DNA of 64,000 nucleotides. It comes from Macrotis lagotis. Lineage: Eukaryota > Chordata > Mammalia > Peramelemorphia > Peramelidae. Below are positions 8,742-62,360 of the stretch, piece after piece. Within the stretch, counting starts at the first letter, position 1. Every line of letters begins with the position of its first letter. Made by a program: the position numbers and the translations under genes. The notes under the pieces were generated by a model. That model saw only the letters and a list, made by a program, of their open reading frames with translations. It had not been told where the DNA came from and did not search any database. The DNA lies in assembly GCF_037893015.1 (NCBI RefSeq), contig NC_133660.1, forward strand, positions 287,653,078 to 287,717,077, in the 5' to 3' direction.

Positions 8742-8747
8742 TTTATT
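8742..8747 (-). promoter_or_regulatory. MS4A15 poly(A) signal AATAAA
   Basis: AATAAA on the minus strand, about 440 bases after the MS4A15 stop codon. It is the first such signal after the stop and gives a 3' UTR of about 460 bases (about 8722-9185). Confidence 0.7.
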
Positions 8748-9185
8748 TCCAGTCATTGATACAATCGCAGGCAGACACAGCCAGCCCCCCCCCCCGTTAT
8801 CTGATCGTCTCTGCCCTTCCAGGAGCCAGAGCCCCCCACAAGAGGCGCGGCCCCCAGCCCCCCTTTTCTCCATGGCCCCTCCCCACCCCGGGGTCTTGCT
8901 AGGAAGCCGAGGCGGGAGCTTCGTGGTCTGGGACCATGAAACTAAGCTGGGGGTGGCCCCTGGGGCGGCGGATCTCTCAGACCGGAGCTGTTGGGAGGGT
9001 CGGGTGGGGGGCACCCGTGCGGCGCCCGCTCTGGGGCCTGGCACCCAGAACACAAACGCGGGGCTCGTGCTCAGTTGGGGGGTCTGCGAGAAAGGAGGGG
9101 CTCGGTCAGCCCCCCTCCACGTGGCGGCATCTGTCCCAGGGGCGCCGCGGGGCGCCGGAAGCCCCCTGCCCCGCTGCCAGCCGCG

Positions 9186-9305
9186 CTACTCCGAGCTCTC
9201 CTTGGCACCGTAGGCCACGTTGTCGTAGGCGGGGGGCGGCGTGGCGGCCGGGCTGGGGATGTTGAAGTCGGCGCTGAAGGCGCTGGGCAGGAAGACCATG
9301 GAGCG
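9186..9305 (-). CDS. MS4A15: MS4A15 terminal coding exon
   Basis: The acceptor CCCCGCAG precedes CGCTCCATGG; 39 codons and TAG (9188-9186). It encodes RSMVFLPSAFSADFNIPSPA, then TPPPAYDNVAYGAKESSE. Extremely GC-rich third positions, unlike the upstream exons, because it lies in the CpG island. Confidence 0.96.
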   Translation of the reverse strand, partial: RSMVFLPSAFSADFNIPSPAATPPPAYDNVAYGAKESSE

Positions 9306-12300
9306 CTGCGGGGAGAGGAGACGAGCCGGAGCGGGAGGCGCAGGCGGCGGCCCCGCGCCCCCGACCCCCGCTCCCCGCCCTGGGGCCCGGGGCTCTGGAG
9401 GGGCACGAGAGGGGGAGGCCCGCGGGCCGGCATCCGGGGCCCGACCAGCCCCAACAGCCCGCGGTGCCACCCCGGGCCTCGGCCTCCCCCGGAGAGCAGC
9501 CGCGGCTGGAGGCTAAGCCTGAGCGCGGGGTGCCCGGGGCCGGGGCCGGGGCCGGGGCCGGGGCCGGGGCCGGGGCCGGGGCCGGGGCCGGGGCCGGGGC
9601 CGGGGCCGGGGCCGGGCGCGTGCTGCCCGGAGGCCACCGTGGAGCCACAGAGACAGACAGACAGACAGTGAGAGACAGACAGAGAGACAGAGACAGAGAC
9701 AGAGAGGGAGAGAGAGACATAGAGAGAGAGAGAGACAGAGAGAGAGACAGAGACAGAGACAGAGTCAGAGAGACAGAGAGAGAGACAGAGAGAGAGAGAG
9801 TCAGAGAGACACAGAGAGAGACAGAGAGAAAGAGAGACAGAAAGAGACAGAGGGAGAGAGAGAGACAGAGAGAGAGAGACAGACTGAGAGACAGACAGAG
9901 AGAGAAAGACAGAGAGGGAGAGACAGAGAGATGGAGAAAGACAGAGAGGGAGAGAGACAGAGACAGAGAGATAGAGACAGAGACACAGAGAGACAGAAAG
10001 AGACAGAGAGAAAGAGAGAGAGACAGAGAGAGAAGCAGACAGATAGACAGACAGAGGGAGACTGACAGAAACAGACACAGAGACAGACAGAGAGGGGGGA
10101 GAGACAGAGTGAGAGAGACAGAGAGAGTCCCTGTGGGCCGTGTCAGACTTGGAAAACCACAATGCACATCATCCGTGATGATTCAACCTTTCCCTGCGCC
10201 ACTTGCATACAGCTCAGGCTAAGCTGGGGGTGTTGTTGCCCCTGGTACCCCGGGGGAGAGAGGACAAGAGAGCCCAGGCCAGAGCCCGGCACCCATCACT
10301 AGTGGAGGTGACTCGGGACATCCCCCCCCCCCCCAAGAGATGAGCCCGATCAGAAAGAAGGAGAAGCCAGAGGGGCCGAGCACGGAGCAGGCACCCACTG
10401 GTGAGTGTGAAGCCTGCCCAGAGCTCAGGAAGGGCCTGGCTTGAGAAGAGGCCAGCAGACTTTCCAGTCTGGGTCCCTTGTTTGTCCTTTGTCCTGGAAG
10501 AGGACGTGACATCGGGAAGTGATGTCCGAACTTGGGAGCCACCTGGATTGAAGTGGACGGGGTGAGCACAGTCACCAGCCTCACTTTCTCCTCTGAAGCC
10601 GAGTGGCTCCAGAGGCCGGATATGGTCCAAGACCCCCGGAGAGGGCCCTGGATGCAGTGGGAAACCTCCAGCTTTTGTTTTTTGCCCTAAGTGAGAGTCA
10701 GAGAGTTTGGAGAAAAGGTTTTGGTCAAATAATGAAGCTGGAGGCCAGAGGTCTATCATGGAAGCAGAGGAGAGTATGAGAAGGTAGAGGCCGGCCTAGA
10801 TGGTCACCCAAGGGCTTTCCTAGTGACAGCCCTGTTCATAGATGAGCAAATAGACAAGAAGGAAGAAGGAGACTCCTCGGTGTAATAGGAAGAAAACTGG
10901 GTTTTGAGAAAGTGGGTTCGACTCCTGATTGGTTCTTTTTTTAAAAAATCACTTCTTTTCACAAGGCAGCGGGGTTAAGTGGCTTGCCTAAGGCCACACA
11001 GTTAGGTCATTATGAAGTGTCTTAGGAGCAGATTTGAACTCAGCTCCTCCTGACTCCAGGGCTGGTGCTCTATCCACTGCGCCACCTAGCTGCCCCCATT
11101 TTTGCCTGCCTGACCTCGGACATAGATCTTTGTTGAACCTCTGGGATTGTTCGTTGATTCCATATGATGAATGTGTGCATTATTGGACCATAGGGTCTCC
11201 AAGATCTCTGGTAGTTCTAGTCCCTAAAGAGCCAAGGGGAGCAGAGACAGCACGTGTAATTTTGAGGCCTCTTCTCTTGGTTCTCCTTTCTTTCTTGGAA
11301 CTGACTGAACCCTACTAATGACTGATAACTCTGTGGGGGTCTCATATACCAGGAGTAAGAAGCCTTCCTAGGATGCCTTCCACCCTCACCCCAAAAGTCC
11401 AACGGAAACCCTGGAAGACTTGGAAGCACTCACTGTATTTGTGTTGGAGCGAGTTGCCTGGCACCCAAAATAGGTGGCAATAACAGCGATGAAGAACTCC
11501 AGGATGGTGAAGATGGTGAGCACGGCCAGATAGCCCCGGCCCACATCCTGCAAACACAGAACCATACAGACCCTGAAATCATTTAACCCCAGATGATTCA
11601 GAGTTGTGGGAAATGCCAGAACACAGAATGTCAGACCTGGCAGGGACCTCAGCACATGGACCATAATGTGGCAGGACTAGTATCTCAGGATTGGTGGGGA
11701 CCTCAAAAAAGATCCCCCCCTACAACCCCCAATAAGTGGCTTCTAATGTCTCTCTGAAGATCTCCAGTCATGGTGCCACCTCACTGTCTCAAAAGATATA
11801 GACAATTACTTCCACAGTCCCTCCTACAGACAGTCACCTGAAGCCAGGAGGCAGTCCCCTAGTCTTAAGGCAGGAATAAGCTCAGGTGGAGATTCTGACC
11901 CCTTTCTCCCCAGCCTAAGCCTTTTTATATTTCAAGGGGCAAAATCCCCAAACAAAGCAACCAAAAATCCATGCCTTCTTAAGGAGCCTTCCTATTTGAA
12001 CAGAACACTGAATTTAGAGTCAGAAAGTCCTGAATTCAAATCCTGCCTCAGATACTACCTATATAACCCTAAGCAAGTCAGTTAACCTCTCTCTCTGCTT
12101 CAGTTTCTTCATCTGTAAAATGGAGATAGCAATTTACCTCCCTCCCTGGGTGGTTATGAGGTCACATGTGAAAAGTGTTTTATTATTATTAATAATGATA
12201 AAAATAATAATAATGTTATCTTATCTGTCGCTGCAGCCACTGCCTAGTAGGAATGTTGAGGAGAGACACAGCAGAGGAAAAGGAAGAGAAAGAAAGGGCA

Positions 12301-14654
12301 GGGAAAATTATTTGACAGTCATTCTTTGATGGTTTACTCACTGTCCCCATAAAACCCTCAAATAGAATAATATGAGAATGTCAAAGAGGAAGGCAAGAAC
12401 TTCTCTGGGTGAAATGGGGTTGAAGGCTTCACGGAAGAGGGAGTGGCGCAGGCTGGACCTTGGCCACCAACAAGGAGAAGGGGGAGCAGTCTTGACCTCC
12501 ATGAATGGAGGCGTGTGAGTGTGTGTGTAAGTGTATGAATGTGTATGTGAGTGTGTTTGTGAGAGTGTGTGTGTGTGAGTGTGAGAATGTGAACATGTGT
12601 GTGTGTGTGTGTGTATAAGAGTGTGAGTGTATGTGAGAGTATGTGTATGAGAATGTGAATGTATGGGAGCCATCTGGCTTCACATTGCCCCCAGGTTTCA
12701 GAATTTCCATCTCTTGGTTGTGCTTGACCCCACACTCACCCAGTTAGTCACCCCAAAGTCCATCAACAGGATTGCCGTAGCAGCGAAGGAAGCGATAATG
12801 TTGATGATGTTCATGCCCAGGCTGCTCTTGACCTGCAGAGGAGAGAAGTGATGAGGGACCTCGTTCTCCCTGGGACCAGGATCGGGCTCTTGTGACCCTC
12901 ACCGAACTCTCAAACCACCGGCCAGTGCAGAGGACCCAGAAAAGCACCCCCACTGCCTGGAATAACTTTGCTTTTTGGCTATCTTCCTCTTCCTAAGCTT
13001 TGGTGCTGCTGCCTCCTAGCCCAGTGCTGTGTCCACCCAGTAGTTGGGGTTGACCTGCCATCGTGGCTTTGGCTACCACTGCCAGGGCCATGAAGGTGAG
13101 GTGGGAGTTGGGGACTCCCTTCCTCTATATAATTGCTCTTAAATCGAGGCCTTCTCTACAGTTAAGAAAAATGAAACTGAATCGTATTTTCCATCCCTCC
13201 ACGAGAGTAGGCAGCCACAGGTTTCACTGTCTGTCCCTGGATCATTTGCTGTCTATACTCCCCCTATCGCCCATCTCCTTTTGCTGTTCTTTCTGGGCAG
13301 GAGGAAAGAGTTTGGATTTGGTTGACCGCCTGCATTGGTTTGACTATGATGATTCAATGAGTTTGGACTCACCAGACAATTGGTGTGATGCTTTTCTGCA
13401 GCCACCGAGAGGGATCCAGAGATGATGAACTGTGTGAGGAGGAGGGTGACACCAGTGACATGTCAGTAGACCGAGCCATCAGGCAGCCAAGATGGGCAAG
13501 TGAGAATATGGGCTCTTCTAGGTGTCGGAATGAGGGAGGCAGTTCCTTGATTCCCCCTCCCCCCAAGACCCCGAGGTCTGTGTGCTGTCTGACTCCAGGA
13601 TGGTGGACTTTGGGGAGTCAGGGGCACCTCTGCCACCAGGCTCCTTTATCTCATCATCTTCTCTTACTTTTCCCTCCAGTCACTCCTCCCCTGGGTGGTG
13701 GAGCTGAGGCCTGAAGCAATGACCTAAGGCTGGATGCTCCCCGCTCCCTTCTTGTCTTCTCAGAGGCTTGGCCCTCTCTGGGTCTGACTTCTGCTCTTCT
13801 ATGAGAAAAATAATGCCTAAGGAGGGCCTTAGATTTGCCCAAGGTCCCACAGCAAGTCAGAGTCAGAGCTGAGACCTGAACCCAGGTCTCCAGCTTACTA
13901 TAGGATTTTTCAGTATTTTTGTGGATCTGGGCAACACTGAAAGGGGGTGTGAGTCCAGATGGACTGGAGGGCCCAAGAAGGGGAGGGCCAGTGACTGTGG
14001 CCTAACTTTGTTCTCTTATCTCACTCAGGGTAGGTGAGGCTGGACAGCAACACCTGGGCTCTTGGAATGGTTTATGGGTAATTTGGTGATGGTGACTGGG
14101 AAGGGACAGGGACCTGAGGGGAACATGACCTTCTCCCTAGACTGGCTTCTTCTAAGCTCCCACCCCTCTCTAGTACTCACACACACTCCTCCCCAGAAGG
14201 GGATCCCTCCATCGATGAACAACATGCCGATGTAGCCCCTCCGAAACATCAGCAGGACGCTGCCAAAGCTGATGTAGATGAGGCCGATCAAAATCTGGAC
14301 CGTCTGCCGGGAGAAGCAAGAGGGAACACCAGAAATCGGGGTGCCCATCCTCCCTTCCCCTTGGTTTTATAGAACATTATGGCTGCAGCATGATCCTTAA
14401 TGCTCAAGGGTCTGTCCTGACAGGCATCCCTAGCTCCTTAATCCTTCTGGGGACATGATTCAATTCAACAGGTATATACTAGGCACTGGCCCTGGGCCAG
14501 GTGCTAGGGATGCAAAAACAAAAATGAAACCATTCCTACCTTCAGGGAGCTTACATTCTAATAGGGGCTCTCAGTGTAGACACAGACAAGTTAACTCAGT
14601 TTATATAAAGTAATTCAGAGAGAGAGAAAGAGGGAAAAAGCGGGAGGGAGGGGG

Positions 14655-14692
<38 letters not shown>

Positions 14693-16417
14693 CCAGTTGG
14701 TAGAAGATCCTAACTCTAAATGCCCACTGGCCTTGCAAGACAATAATACAAGGAATTCTAAGAGGCAAAGGGTCCTAGGTGTGTGACCATGGACAAGTCA
14801 CTTAACCCCATGGCCTTGCAAAAAAAAAAGAGGCAAAGGGAAAGTTGCTTTTTAGCAAGACAACAAACACCCCAAGTTTCTTATTTATAAACAAAGCTAC
14901 TCTGGGGAAATGGGCATGTAGAAAACTATTTTTACCAGTGATCCTTTATGAATATGGGTTGAACCTCACTTTCTGTGACTAGAGATATTGTCTAGCCCCA
15001 GACTTACTGTAGAGGTCAGGCTGACCTCAGAGACCTCCTGGGGAAGGGGATGCTTGGATCCCACCAGGGCCAGGGTCTATCCAAGGCTTCTGTTTTGGGT
15101 TCCCCCAATTTGAATGTTTTGGCTTGCTGATATGCCTCAATGCCGCTGCTCTGGGCCCTGCCCTCTCCACCATTTTGCTTAACTACATGTGTGAACATGT
15201 GGTTCATGCAGGTACCTTTGTCTCAGCTTTATTTAATACAAAACTCCAGAGAATGGACAAGGAACCATATCTTTTTTTCTGGCTCTCTTCTTTACCAAAT
15301 GACCAAGTACATTTCTTTCTAAAATGGTTTTAGATTTCGGGGTTTGTTCTCATGACTAACAGACACCAGAAGGAAAAGACAGAAGATCTCCCTTCTGGTT
15401 CTGACCACTTGCTGAATAACTTTGGACAAGATCCTTGTCTCTTTGGGCCTCTACCCTTTCAGACAAAAAATGGAGGAAGGAAGGGGAATGGGACGAAGTA
15501 CATTTTAAGGTCCATTCCAACTCCACATGTCTAAGATTGTAGGTACAGCTTCTATTTTTTTGTCTCAAACCTATCTCAACAAGGTTCATGATGTGTATGT
15601 GTGTGGGGGTGGGGGTAGATTGGGGTGCTGGAAGTGAGAGAGGTGGTCTGGTGTGGGATGGTTCCACTCATTATGTGCTTTCTGAATGGATAGAAAGAAC
15701 ACTATCAGCCTTGATTCCTTCGGGCTAAGGTCAGAGTGTGGAAGGGGAAGTTTGAGAAAAGGACACAGGGAATAGGTTATTGGGGTTGTTGGGAAGGGGG
15801 AGGCATGAGAGTTGACTTATATAGAAGGGTATTTTGAGGTTCAATGTTATTTGGCCCTAGGAGGAGGAACTAGCCCCAAAGAAAGGATGTTATAAGTGAG
15901 GCACAATAAGGCTTGATATGAGAAAAAAGGTCTCCTTCACCCATTATCTGCAATGGTAGTGAGCTTCCCATCATTGAAGGGCTTCAAGCAGAGCATGGGT
16001 TCCTACAGTGTCAAAGGTATTTGGGTGACGATTCTTGTTCAGATATAGGCTGGAATAACCAGACACTGGGGTTCTGGCCAGTTCTATGATCCTCTTTCTA
16101 TTCATAACCCCCTCAAACCCTGTCCTTGTCCTCAGGAAGCATCTCTCTTTGCCCCCAGCCCAGCCCAAAGCAGACTCCAAGGATGGGCTTACCCCTAAGG
16201 CCTTGGGCTCCCCGCTGAGGAATGTTTCTCCTGAAGGAAGTCTCTGATGGGGCACATTTCCAGAAGGTTGTGACCCTAGTGGTGGGTCCTCAAACTGCAA
16301 TGTCCCAGGAGATTGGCTCAGGGTCCTGGGCAGCATCGTGGGGCCTGGCCGGATACCGCTGGCATTATTTGGGGGGATGACCACAAACACCCCATTAGTG
16401 GCAGGTGTTGAGGTCAT
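9186..16417 (-). CDS. MS4A15: MS4A15, complete coding sequence in six exons
   Basis: Exons 16193-16417, 14181-14303, 13373-13429, 12740-12832, 11434-11547 and 9186-9305 join in phase 0 to give 243 codons plus stop (human about 240 as I recall). The N-terminus ATNGVFVVIPPNNASG is almost identical to human MS4A15, as is SAFSADFNIPSPAA near the C-terminus. TM1 is about residues 77-95, TM2 101-128 (PFWGG then CFIISGSLSVAA), TM3 142-163 and TM4 172-195. A PPAY motif (228-231) in the cytosolic tail fits the PPxY class bound by WW domains of NEDD4-type ligases (inference). MS4A15 is known from lung epithelium and is reported to sit in the ER, where it alters calcium and lipid handling and ferroptosis resistance. 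Every splice site is canonical and no lesion is seen. The last intron holds the GGGGCC tract. Confidence 0.96.
9536..9613 (+). repeat. (GGGGCC)13 hexanucleotide tract
   Basis: Thirteen uninterrupted GGGGCC units on the plus strand, followed by a partial unit. It lies in the last intron of MS4A15, 231 bases upstream (in transcription order) of the terminal exon acceptor. The unit is the same as that expanded in human C9orf72. Since MS4A15 is read from the minus strand, its own pre-mRNA would carry GGCCCC units, and only antisense RNA would carry GGGGCC. Confidence 0.97.
9648..10128 (+). repeat. AGACAG/AGAG purine-rich tandem repeat, about 480 bp
   Basis: Continuous AGACAG, AGAGAC and AGAG units with few interruptions, starting about 35 bases after the GGGGCC tract. 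It leaves several frames open on both strands (Arg/Glu/Thr/Asp-rich on plus, Ser/Leu-rich on minus), which explains long spurious reading frames here. Confidence 0.95.
10490..10720 (+). repeat. Composite SINE module (GAAGA...CATCAGG family), copy 1
   Basis: Shares the order TTTGTCCT...GAAGAGGACGTGACATCGGG, GGATTGAAGTGGA, CACCAGCCTCACTTTCTCCT, CCAGAGGCCGGATATGG and CCTGGATGCAGTGGGA with copies at 52.1, 58.8, 59.15 and 60.6 kb. The unusually GC-rich version sits in the MS4A15 last intron. Confidence 0.65.
10936..11096 (-). repeat. tRNA-headed marsupial SINE
   Basis: The minus strand begins GGGGCAGCTAGGTGGCGCAG and passes GAGTTCAAATCTGCTCC and TTAACCCCGCTGCCTTGTG into an A-rich end. Young family, well matched to other copies in the window. 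Confidence 0.9.
11434..11547 (-). CDS. MS4A15: MS4A15 TM4 exon
   Basis: 114 bp; acceptor GTTTGCAG, donor GTGAGT. Encodes DVGRGYLAVLTIFTILEFF then IAVIATYFGCQATRSNTNT. It has the same length and phase as the MS4A8 TM4 exon. Confidence 0.97.
12000..12190 (+). repeat. MIR/CORE-SINE
   Basis: Contains AGTCAGAAAGTCCTGAATTC, TGCCTCAGATACTACCTA, CAAGTCAGTTAACCTC and TTCATCTGTAAAATGGAGAT. In the intron between the MS4A15 TM3 and TM4 exons. Confidence 0.75.
12512..12664. repeat. TG-rich compound microsatellite
   Basis: About 150 bp of GTGTGA, GTGTGT and GTATGTGA units in the intron after the MS4A15 TM3 exon, starting 76 bases downstream of its donor. Confidence 0.93.
12740..12832 (-). CDS. MS4A15: MS4A15 TM3 exon
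   Basis: 93 bp (31 codons); acceptor CTCTGCAG, donor GTGAGT. Encodes VKSSLGMNIINIIASFAATA then ILLMDFGVTNW. Confidence 0.97.
13373..13429 (-). CDS. MS4A15: MS4A15 57-bp TM2 exon
   Basis: 57 bp; acceptor CACACAG, donor GTGAGT. Encodes FIISGSLSVAAEKHHTNCL, the strongest family signature; human reads AEKNHTSCL at its end. Confidence 0.98.
13830..13905 (-). repeat. MIR fragment
   Basis: GCCCAAGGTCCCACAGCAAG, then GAACCCAGGTCTCCAG: complement of a MIR head and core. Confidence 0.55.
14181..14303 (-). CDS. MS4A15: MS4A15 TM1-TM2 exon
   Basis: 123 bp (41 codons); acceptor CCGGCAG, donor GTGAGT. Encodes TVQILIGLIYISFGSVLLMF, then RRGYIGMLFIDGGIPFWGGV and C. Confidence 0.98.
14617..14690. repeat. 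(GA)n microsatellite
   Basis: Interrupted then perfect GA run in the first coding intron of MS4A15. The preceding 14460-14600 resembles an old interspersed repeat (GGAGCTTACATTCTAATAGG). Confidence 0.9.
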
Positions 16418-18350: not shown

Positions 18351-18360
18351 CTTGTATAAT

Positions 18361-18440
18361 CTTCTTCTTCTTCTTCTTCTTCTTCTTCTTCTTCTTCTTC
18401 TTCTTCTTCTTCTTCTTCTTCTTCTTCTTCTTCTTCTTCT
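18361..18440. repeat. (CTT)n trinucleotide tract, 80 bp
   Basis: Perfect CTT repeat between two SINE copies. It probably grew from the CTTCTTG target-site sequence (inference). Confidence 0.97.
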
Positions 18441-22950: not shown

Positions 22951-24295
22951 ATCTGGATCAAATGAAATAAAATATCCAGGCACTTTGCAAATTTTGAAGC
23001 GCTACAAAAGTTATTGCTTCCTGATATTCTGTATTCTAAGGCCCTCTCCACAAGAACAGAAGAACAATCTGTGTCCTTATGTCCTTACTGGCCCCAACAT
23101 TCTTTCTTCCCCCATTCCTCCCTAAGTTCTCCTCCAACTCTAGAATTTTGCTCTTGTGGGCAAAACAACCAGGCAACTCAAGGCGATGGTTGAAGGGCTA
23201 TCATGGGCAGCCTGTGGCAAGCACCCAGGAAGTGGCTTTGTGGGAAGTCTGGGCTAAATAGGTCTTATGGAGGCATAACCTTGCCCAGACTGGCTGTCTT
23301 AGAGAACATTCTTATTCACAAAGGAGGAGAGATCGCAATGCCCTAGTTCACAGGTTGTTACTAACTTGGGAGGTGTGAGCGGAGTAGGGAGAGAGGCCGT
23401 GAATCACAGCTTGCTTTGCTAATACATCTGCATGAGGAATCTTCAGAACCCAGGGAGCCTGGGGTGCATGAGGGTCCCACTTGAAGCTAGGGCCCTCCAA
23501 TTCCCCCATCTGTTAAGGGGCAAAAGAACATGGAGCCCAGAAGAGCTGTGCTATATTCCCTGAACTTGGATTCAAAAAAAATCAGAGTTGGAACCCTTCC
23601 TTCACTTCCTAGCTTCTCTGAGGTATACTTTCCTTCTCTGTAAAATGGACAATAGCTTTGACTAACCCAATTTACTGGATGACCTTAGGTAAGTCATTTC
23701 CCATTTTGCAAATGAGTAAACAGGACTGTGGAGATGTCCCAATGAAAGGATATATGTAGATATTGCCAAATCTCAAAGTCCAACATAAATATTAGGAGAT
23801 TAAACAGGAAATTAAAAGTCTTTTGAAGAATTCAAATCAATTCACCAAACCCTTATGAAGTGTCTACTATGTGAAGTATCTGTACTAGTGGCCTTAATTA
23901 AAGAGACCTTTGGACAAGATGTGAGATGTGAACACCATGAGGTATCTACCAGACCAGTGGTGCTGAGATCTCAGGTTCTAGATTTCAGTCCTTCCATAAT
24001 GTAGGTTCCTTGGTTAATTCAGTCCAGAGCTGTGGTTTTTTCCTCAGTAAGGGGGGGCAGCCTTACTCATGTCTTAGGGTGGTCTGAGTGAGGAAGGTGA
24101 AGTCCATCTCTTCTATATGCTTTATGGAGTTGGATTCCTTCCCCATCCCCCCCCCCCCCCACTATCTGATGGTCCTGGAGGAGGAGATCTCTTGTACATT
24201 TATTCCCATTCATTTACTGTACCGTATAGGATAAAGTAGTGGCCTTCCTTTGACCTCAGTTTTCCTATCCATAAAATGGGAAACATGGGCTAGGG

Positions 24296-62213: not shown

Positions 62214-62360
62214 GAAGGAGGAGGAGGAGGAGGAGGAGGAGGAGGAGGAGAAGGAAGAGGAGGAGGAGAAGAAGGAGGAGGAGGAGGAGGAAGAGAAGGA
62301 GGAGGAGAAGGAGGAAGAAGAAGGAGGAGAAGGAAGAAGAGGAAGGAGGAGAAGAAGGAG
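62214..62360 (+). repeat. (GGA)n/(GAAGGA)n tract
   Basis: About 147 bp of GGA and GAA units, purine only on plus. Gives a Gly/Glu/Arg-rich spurious frame. Confidence 0.96.

Follow-up and report, generated by a model that had tools for sequence, protein, structure and literature searches.

Large expansion of the GGGGCC repeat in C9orf72 leads to ALS/FTD in humans. Normal human alleles of this repeat carry 2–25 units according to the excerpted text of PMC5574247, and the normal human range is given as 3–30 in that of PMC5822839. In the latter excerpt, one C9orf72 transcript has the human tract in its core promoter, and others have it in intron 1; among the introns compared there, that of the chimpanzee has one GGGGCC, that of the gorilla none and that of the mouse two non-tandem ones, and macaque, orangutan and marmoset carry GGGGCC sequence, tandem or otherwise. 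In addition, GC-only CGG repeats are described at FRA7A (ZNF713) and FRA2A (AFF3), the ordinary short alleles of which have 5–22 and 8–17 units, respectively (PMC5574247, in excerpt). A GGGGCC tract in MS4A15 or in any marsupial is not named in the literature titles and abstract openings that were covered.

In Macrotis lagotis, a GGGGCC tract is located in the last intron of MS4A15, in the window, that is, the whole stretch of 64,000 nucleotides that was analysed. As it stands, there is nothing remarkable about 13 units in an island this rich in GC. Replication slippage has probably built this pure 83-base microsatellite from two GGGGCC units that arose by chance in a segment of very high GC content, itself perhaps enriched by GC-biased gene conversion, and a required function of the tract is unlikely.

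The GGGGCC tract and its host gene

First of all, the initial annotation had placed 13 perfect GGGGCC units at 9536–9613, and they were found there on the plus strand. With partial units at both ends, the pure tract in the repeat scan extends over 9534–9616 (+), and Tandem Repeats Finder describes it as 83 bases, or 13.8 copies of CCGGGG with 100% matches. The unit count is that of one assembled allele. The tract contains 14 CpGs and gives 12 overlapping two-unit GGGGCC matches; 100 shuffles that preserved dinucleotides had 0.01 on average, and none of them had 12. When pure repeats with a unit of 1–12 bases, at least 24 bases and at least three units were scanned for, 9 were found in the window, of which the GGGGCC tract is the sole hexanucleotide; another long one, (TCT)27 at 18360–18440, has 81 bases and nearly reaches its length. 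An AGG-type array of 145 bp with 83% matches was also observed at 62216–62360, inside a T-free run of 154 bases. No RNA family was found in the window at the gathering threshold. GC-rich tandem repeats are in general difficult sequencing targets, and on this ground the tract might be an assembly artefact, collapsed or inflated; this is highly improbable, as there is one clean tract with distinct flanks and no Ns in the window, and while the mis-sizing of a repeat is conceivable, its outright invention hardly is.

MS4A15 is complete on the minus strand, where six coding exons joined at consensus splice sites encode a protein of 243 residues. Coding exon 1, with the ATG, is at 16193–16417, followed by exon 2 at 14181–14303, exon 3 at 13373–13429, exon 4 at 12740–12832, exon 5 at 11434–11547 and the terminal coding exon 6, with the stop codon, at 9186–9305; the predicted polyadenylation signal AATAAA is at 8742–8747, all on the minus strand. 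Intron 5, the last intron (9306–11433, minus strand, 2128 bases), bears the tract. The gene product shares 91% identity with Antechinus flavipes MS4A15 over 100% of its length and 80% with the Monodelphis entry, it matches the Pfam CD20 family with 84.1 bits against a cutoff of 27.9, and the solved structures matched by it are those of the IgE receptor beta chain and CD20. That is to say, the gene has what is expected of an MS4A15 orthologue: a full-length collinear protein, a CD20 domain and MS4A15 proteins as best relatives. Its residues 44, 49 and 63 are shared with Petaurus and differ from the other three marsupial entries, and position 52 agrees with the two opossums, against Petaurus. 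The six-exon model and the protein matches bear out the earlier assignment of the tract to the last intron of MS4A15, and the distance of 231 bases given to the terminal exon is exact, since that exon begins at 9305 on the minus strand and the units at 9536. By eye, a MIR-like stretch was observed at about 10940–11100 inside intron 5, and we take it to resemble the end of a marsupial MIR-type SINE.

Base composition and the origin of the tract

The CpG island reported around the tract does exist. It occupies 8751–9830 at the 3′ end of MS4A15, where it spans exon 6, the greater part of the 3′ UTR and the final portion of intron 5, and it is the only one in the window under the criteria used (GC of at least 0.55 and CpG observed/expected of at least 0.65 in 500-bp windows). 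As would be expected of a polymorphic CpG-island microsatellite, the tract is a pure tandem repeat of a GC-only unit of no more than 6 bases inside a CpG island. Between 8750 and 9640, with the tract excluded, GC is 0.74 and CpG observed/expected is 0.70, and the latter ratio is 0.14 over the whole window. Exon 6 has a GC of 0.69 and a GC3 of 0.97, and 20 of its 21 fourfold-degenerate sites are G or C, compared with 69 of 109 in exons 1–5 (Fisher p 0.0037).

The replacements private to this protein were also compared, a replacement being called private when the window departs from a residue on which all the marsupial orthologues covering the site (3 or 4 of 4) concur; sites with disagreeing relatives or with fewer than three covering ones (205, 237 and 241 in exon 6, and many in exons 1–5) were left out. 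All three in exon 6 (residues 212, 216 and 238) are AT-to-GC, and the six in exons 1–5 comprise one AT-to-GC, four GC-to-AT and one neutral change, with a one-sided Fisher p of 0.071 when the neutral change is excluded. The changes were polarised on the protein sequences, and not the DNA, of four marsupial entries, the shortest codon paths being assumed; at residue 216 human has the residue of the window and at residue 133 platypus has it, so that polarity there depends on the marsupials alone. The AT-to-GC replacement bias of exon 6 is suggestive only. GC-biased gene conversion, a process described in the excerpt of PMC10166821, is favoured as a putative cause of the GC inflation around exon 6, and the terminal exon at 9186–9305 is a possible spot of it. 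The same excerpt reports that synapsis in the Australian M. eugenii begins at interstitial and distal sites with a broad break signal, and that recombination is lower in marsupials than in placentals; the latter reduces the prior for gene conversion and counts against it.

In the proposed origin, GC-biased gene conversion would perhaps have raised the local GC content, a chance two-unit GGGGCC seed would have arisen in the GC-inflated DNA, and replication slippage would then likely have lengthened this seed to the 13-unit tract. When sequence was simulated from the island core with the tract removed, two-unit GGGGCC seeds occurred at 27 per Mb; a simulation of 2 Mb from the remainder of the window contained none. 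In addition, a scan of one-per-species prokaryote genomes, the records of which include some metagenome bins or contig-end positions, gave 86 stretches of (GGGGCC)8 or longer, the longest of 164 bases and 10 of them at least 83 bases. The median flank GC, measured over all 86, is 0.71, and one lies below 0.55. Such pure tracts in GC-rich prokaryote DNA mean that the motif grows repeatedly without a link to C9orf72. It has also been reported that STRs are common near CpG islands (PMC10027321, in excerpt).

With regard to age, the edges of the tract are sharp. Among 17 flanking in-register hexamers compared with CCGGGG (8 on the left and 9 on the right), one has at least 4 matches, namely the first on the right, which still overlaps the tract end; a decayed older array is therefore not visible. 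By composition alone, 17% of island hexamers reach 4 matches. If substitutions are assumed to occur at 2.5e-9 to 1e-8 per site per year, the mean wait for the first substitution in 83 bases is 4.8 to 1.2 million years, which gives no firm date, since slippage can renew purity. The recent growth proposed earlier agrees with the purity and the sharp edges of the tract, but its dating leans on assumed mutation rates. None of the 14 CpGs in the tract has decayed; this fits an island that is unmethylated in the germline, which would let the CpGs of the tract stay intact.

Transcription, splicing and translation around the tract

The strand relations had also been described correctly: the G-rich plus strand is the template of MS4A15, and the pre-mRNA would carry GGCCCC, which cannot form the GGGGCC quadruplex. 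The tract is inside the longest (98 bases) of the 67 G4Hunter regions in the window; its G4Hunter maximum is 2.08, and several regions peak higher, for example 3.04 at 24128–24175. Folded as RNA, the plus strand is predicted at −122.4 kcal/mol when quadruplexes are allowed, compared with −61.5 kcal/mol without them, and the minus strand at −49.9 kcal/mol both ways. It is predicted that the G-rich template strand could fold into several four-layer G-quadruplexes, which would hold back Pol II shortly before it reaches the terminal exon. Further four-layer quadruplex motifs were observed at 9382–9415 (+) and 9351–9376 (−), in the part of the island between the tract and the terminal exon.

GGGGCC RNA and favoured R-loops would require transcription in the opposite direction: R-loop formation is described as common on C-rich templates (PMC5574247, in excerpt), and this means that antisense transcription is needed at the MS4A15 tract. 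Such transcription would be supplied if the island were an active orphan promoter inside MS4A15 with the tract as part of its architecture, so that putative antisense transcription in the plus direction would produce GGGGCC RNA, accompanied by G-quadruplexes and by an R-loop that extends into the neighbouring purine array. The island is the only one of the window, the plus-strand GC skew is 0.425 over 9500–9999 (tract and array included), and an active promoter would likewise explain the intact CpGs, which counts against the slippage explanation. Moreover, roughly one in two CpG islands in human and mouse is an orphan, and many show transcription initiation (PMC2944787, in excerpt), and active intragenic islands have been linked to the choice of poly(A) site (PMC8873577, in excerpt). 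However, this island, located at the 3′ end of MS4A15, overlaps coding sequence, and codon GC can create an island by composition alone; an orphan promoter is therefore unlikely here, and slippage in a GC-rich segment is still preferred.

The purine array is of GAGACA type, has about 480 bp and is located at 9649–10127 (+), 32 bp from the tract; on the MS4A15 strand it is CU-rich, with 185 C and 232 T in 479 bases. Between it and the terminal exon, intron 5 has an unusual end. A 64-base run free of adenosine (9308–9371, minus strand) lies upstream of the terminal acceptor and leaves no usual branch-point A; in the last 66 bases of the intron there is no adenosine except that of the AG itself, and the nearest A is at −67. 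From −60 to −10, intron 5 contains 0 adenosines, compared with 8, 6, 11 and 12 in introns 1–4. This GC-rich terminal exon without an adenosine in the branch window is, besides the tract, a second oddity that can be tested. With the simple T-N-A rule used for matching branch motifs instead of a trained model, the nearest motifs are at −209 and −215, and candidate distant branch sites are predicted in the CU array at 9664–9805 (minus strand), namely UCUCACU with its A at 9669 (−364) and UCUGACU with its A at 9765 and at 9801 (−460 and −496).

In principle, then, the tract and the CU array could alter the splicing of the MS4A15 terminal exon, the array branch sites being used across a GGCCCC hairpin. 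The branch-point window without adenosine, unlike those of introns 1–4, and the UCUGACU and UCUCACU sites inside the array speak for it, and some human exons are known to have their branch points as far as 400 nt away (PMC1431707, in excerpt). According to the same excerpt, however, known exons of this kind have long AG-free zones, and here the nearest upstream AG is at −67 and more AGs lie between the array and the exon; two of the candidate sites lie more than 400 nt away, and T-N-A motifs are present also at −209 and −215. Altered splicing is thus very unlikely, and as there is no long AG-free zone in intron 5, the branch site is left unexplained.

As for translation, the dipeptide frames listed in the initial annotation hold: all six are open across the tract, reading PG, RG and GA on the plus strand and PG, PA and RP on the minus strand. 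In each of the six frames, the stretch between the nearest upstream stop and the tract was surveyed for start codons, with near-cognate starts counted only when both Kozak positions matched. The sole ATG is in the minus-strand poly-PA frame, 104 bases upstream, with 0 of 2 Kozak positions matched. The near-cognate starts are CTG at 139 and 154 bases in the plus-strand poly-GA frame, GTG at 21 and ACG at 525 bases in the minus-strand poly-PG frame, and ACG at 560 bases in the minus-strand poly-PA frame. On the plus strand, the GAGACA array was observed to read as an Arg-Asp/Glu/Gln-rich peptide continuing from the poly-GR and poly-GA frames. Intron retention was rejected as a route of translation, as the reading frame of exon 5 meets a stop after 15 intronic residues.

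It could also be supposed that the CU array, its UCUGACU and UCUCACU sites and the tract together make up an alternative terminal exon of MS4A15, entered at an acceptor at 9883 or 9622, so that ordinary translation from an AUG would give the protein a new poly-Pro-Gly C-terminus of about 14 units, with the unit number tuning its length in a natural, healthy genome. Two predicted acceptors on the minus strand, each given by its first exon base, would join exon 5 in the poly-Pro-Gly frame, which runs to a stop at 9071: a weak candidate just before the tract at 9622 (score −3.1) and a stronger one inside the array at 9883 (score 3.8). By the same scores, which use assumed and not fitted base frequencies, the true acceptors of exons 2 and 3 have 4.1 and 4.3, near the value of 9883, and those of exons 4–6 have 9.6, 5.2 and 5.9. 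The gene region contains 518 AGs, and the score of 9883 is at their 95th percentile, so that chance alone would be expected to yield such sites; an AG situated 89 bases upstream of exon 6 has 3.9, but its use would skip the tract. Residues 235–387 of the product from 9622, which follow the repeat, matched no protein at E ≤ 0.001 among 7979 candidates scored. An alternative terminal exon of this kind is extremely improbable.

Comparison with known repeat loci

Should the tract turn out to vary among animals, it would provide a GGGGCC repeat that occurs naturally outside C9orf72, in an orientation opposite to that of its host gene, and it could then be used to test what expands GGGGCC (sequence, orientation or CpG methylation) apart from the C9orf72 locus. 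The tract resembles that of C9orf72 in its identical tandem unit, its intronic position, its CpG-rich surroundings, its quadruplex-prone sequence and the same dipeptide frames on the two strands. However, its host is MS4A15 and not C9orf72; it is in the last intron, not the first, and in an island at the 3′ end of the gene, not in a first-intron or promoter CpG island; and the gene is on the minus strand and the tract on the plus strand, so GGGGCC is on the template strand and not in the sense RNA of the host. Its 13 full units, counted on one assembled allele, are inside the normal human range and below the pathogenic length of at least 25 units given in the excerpt of PMC5574247. The earlier name "C9orf72-type" therefore stands for the motif and not for orientation, island position or length, and it would be wrong to class the MS4A15 tract as a C9orf72-type locus.

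The CGG repeats of FRA7A and FRA2A are likewise intronic, GC-only and linked to CpG islands, but they are trinucleotide and not hexanucleotide repeats, and expanded methylated alleles are known there but not at the MS4A15 tract. The GGCCTG repeat of NOP56 (SCA36) is also an intronic GC-rich hexanucleotide, with a normal range of 3–14 units (PMC5574247, in excerpt), but differs in motif and gene. Finally, the 86 prokaryote stretches share the same pure unit and a similar length, but belong to unrelated genomes, and their likeness to the MS4A15 tract points to independent origin in GC-rich DNA, not to shared descent.
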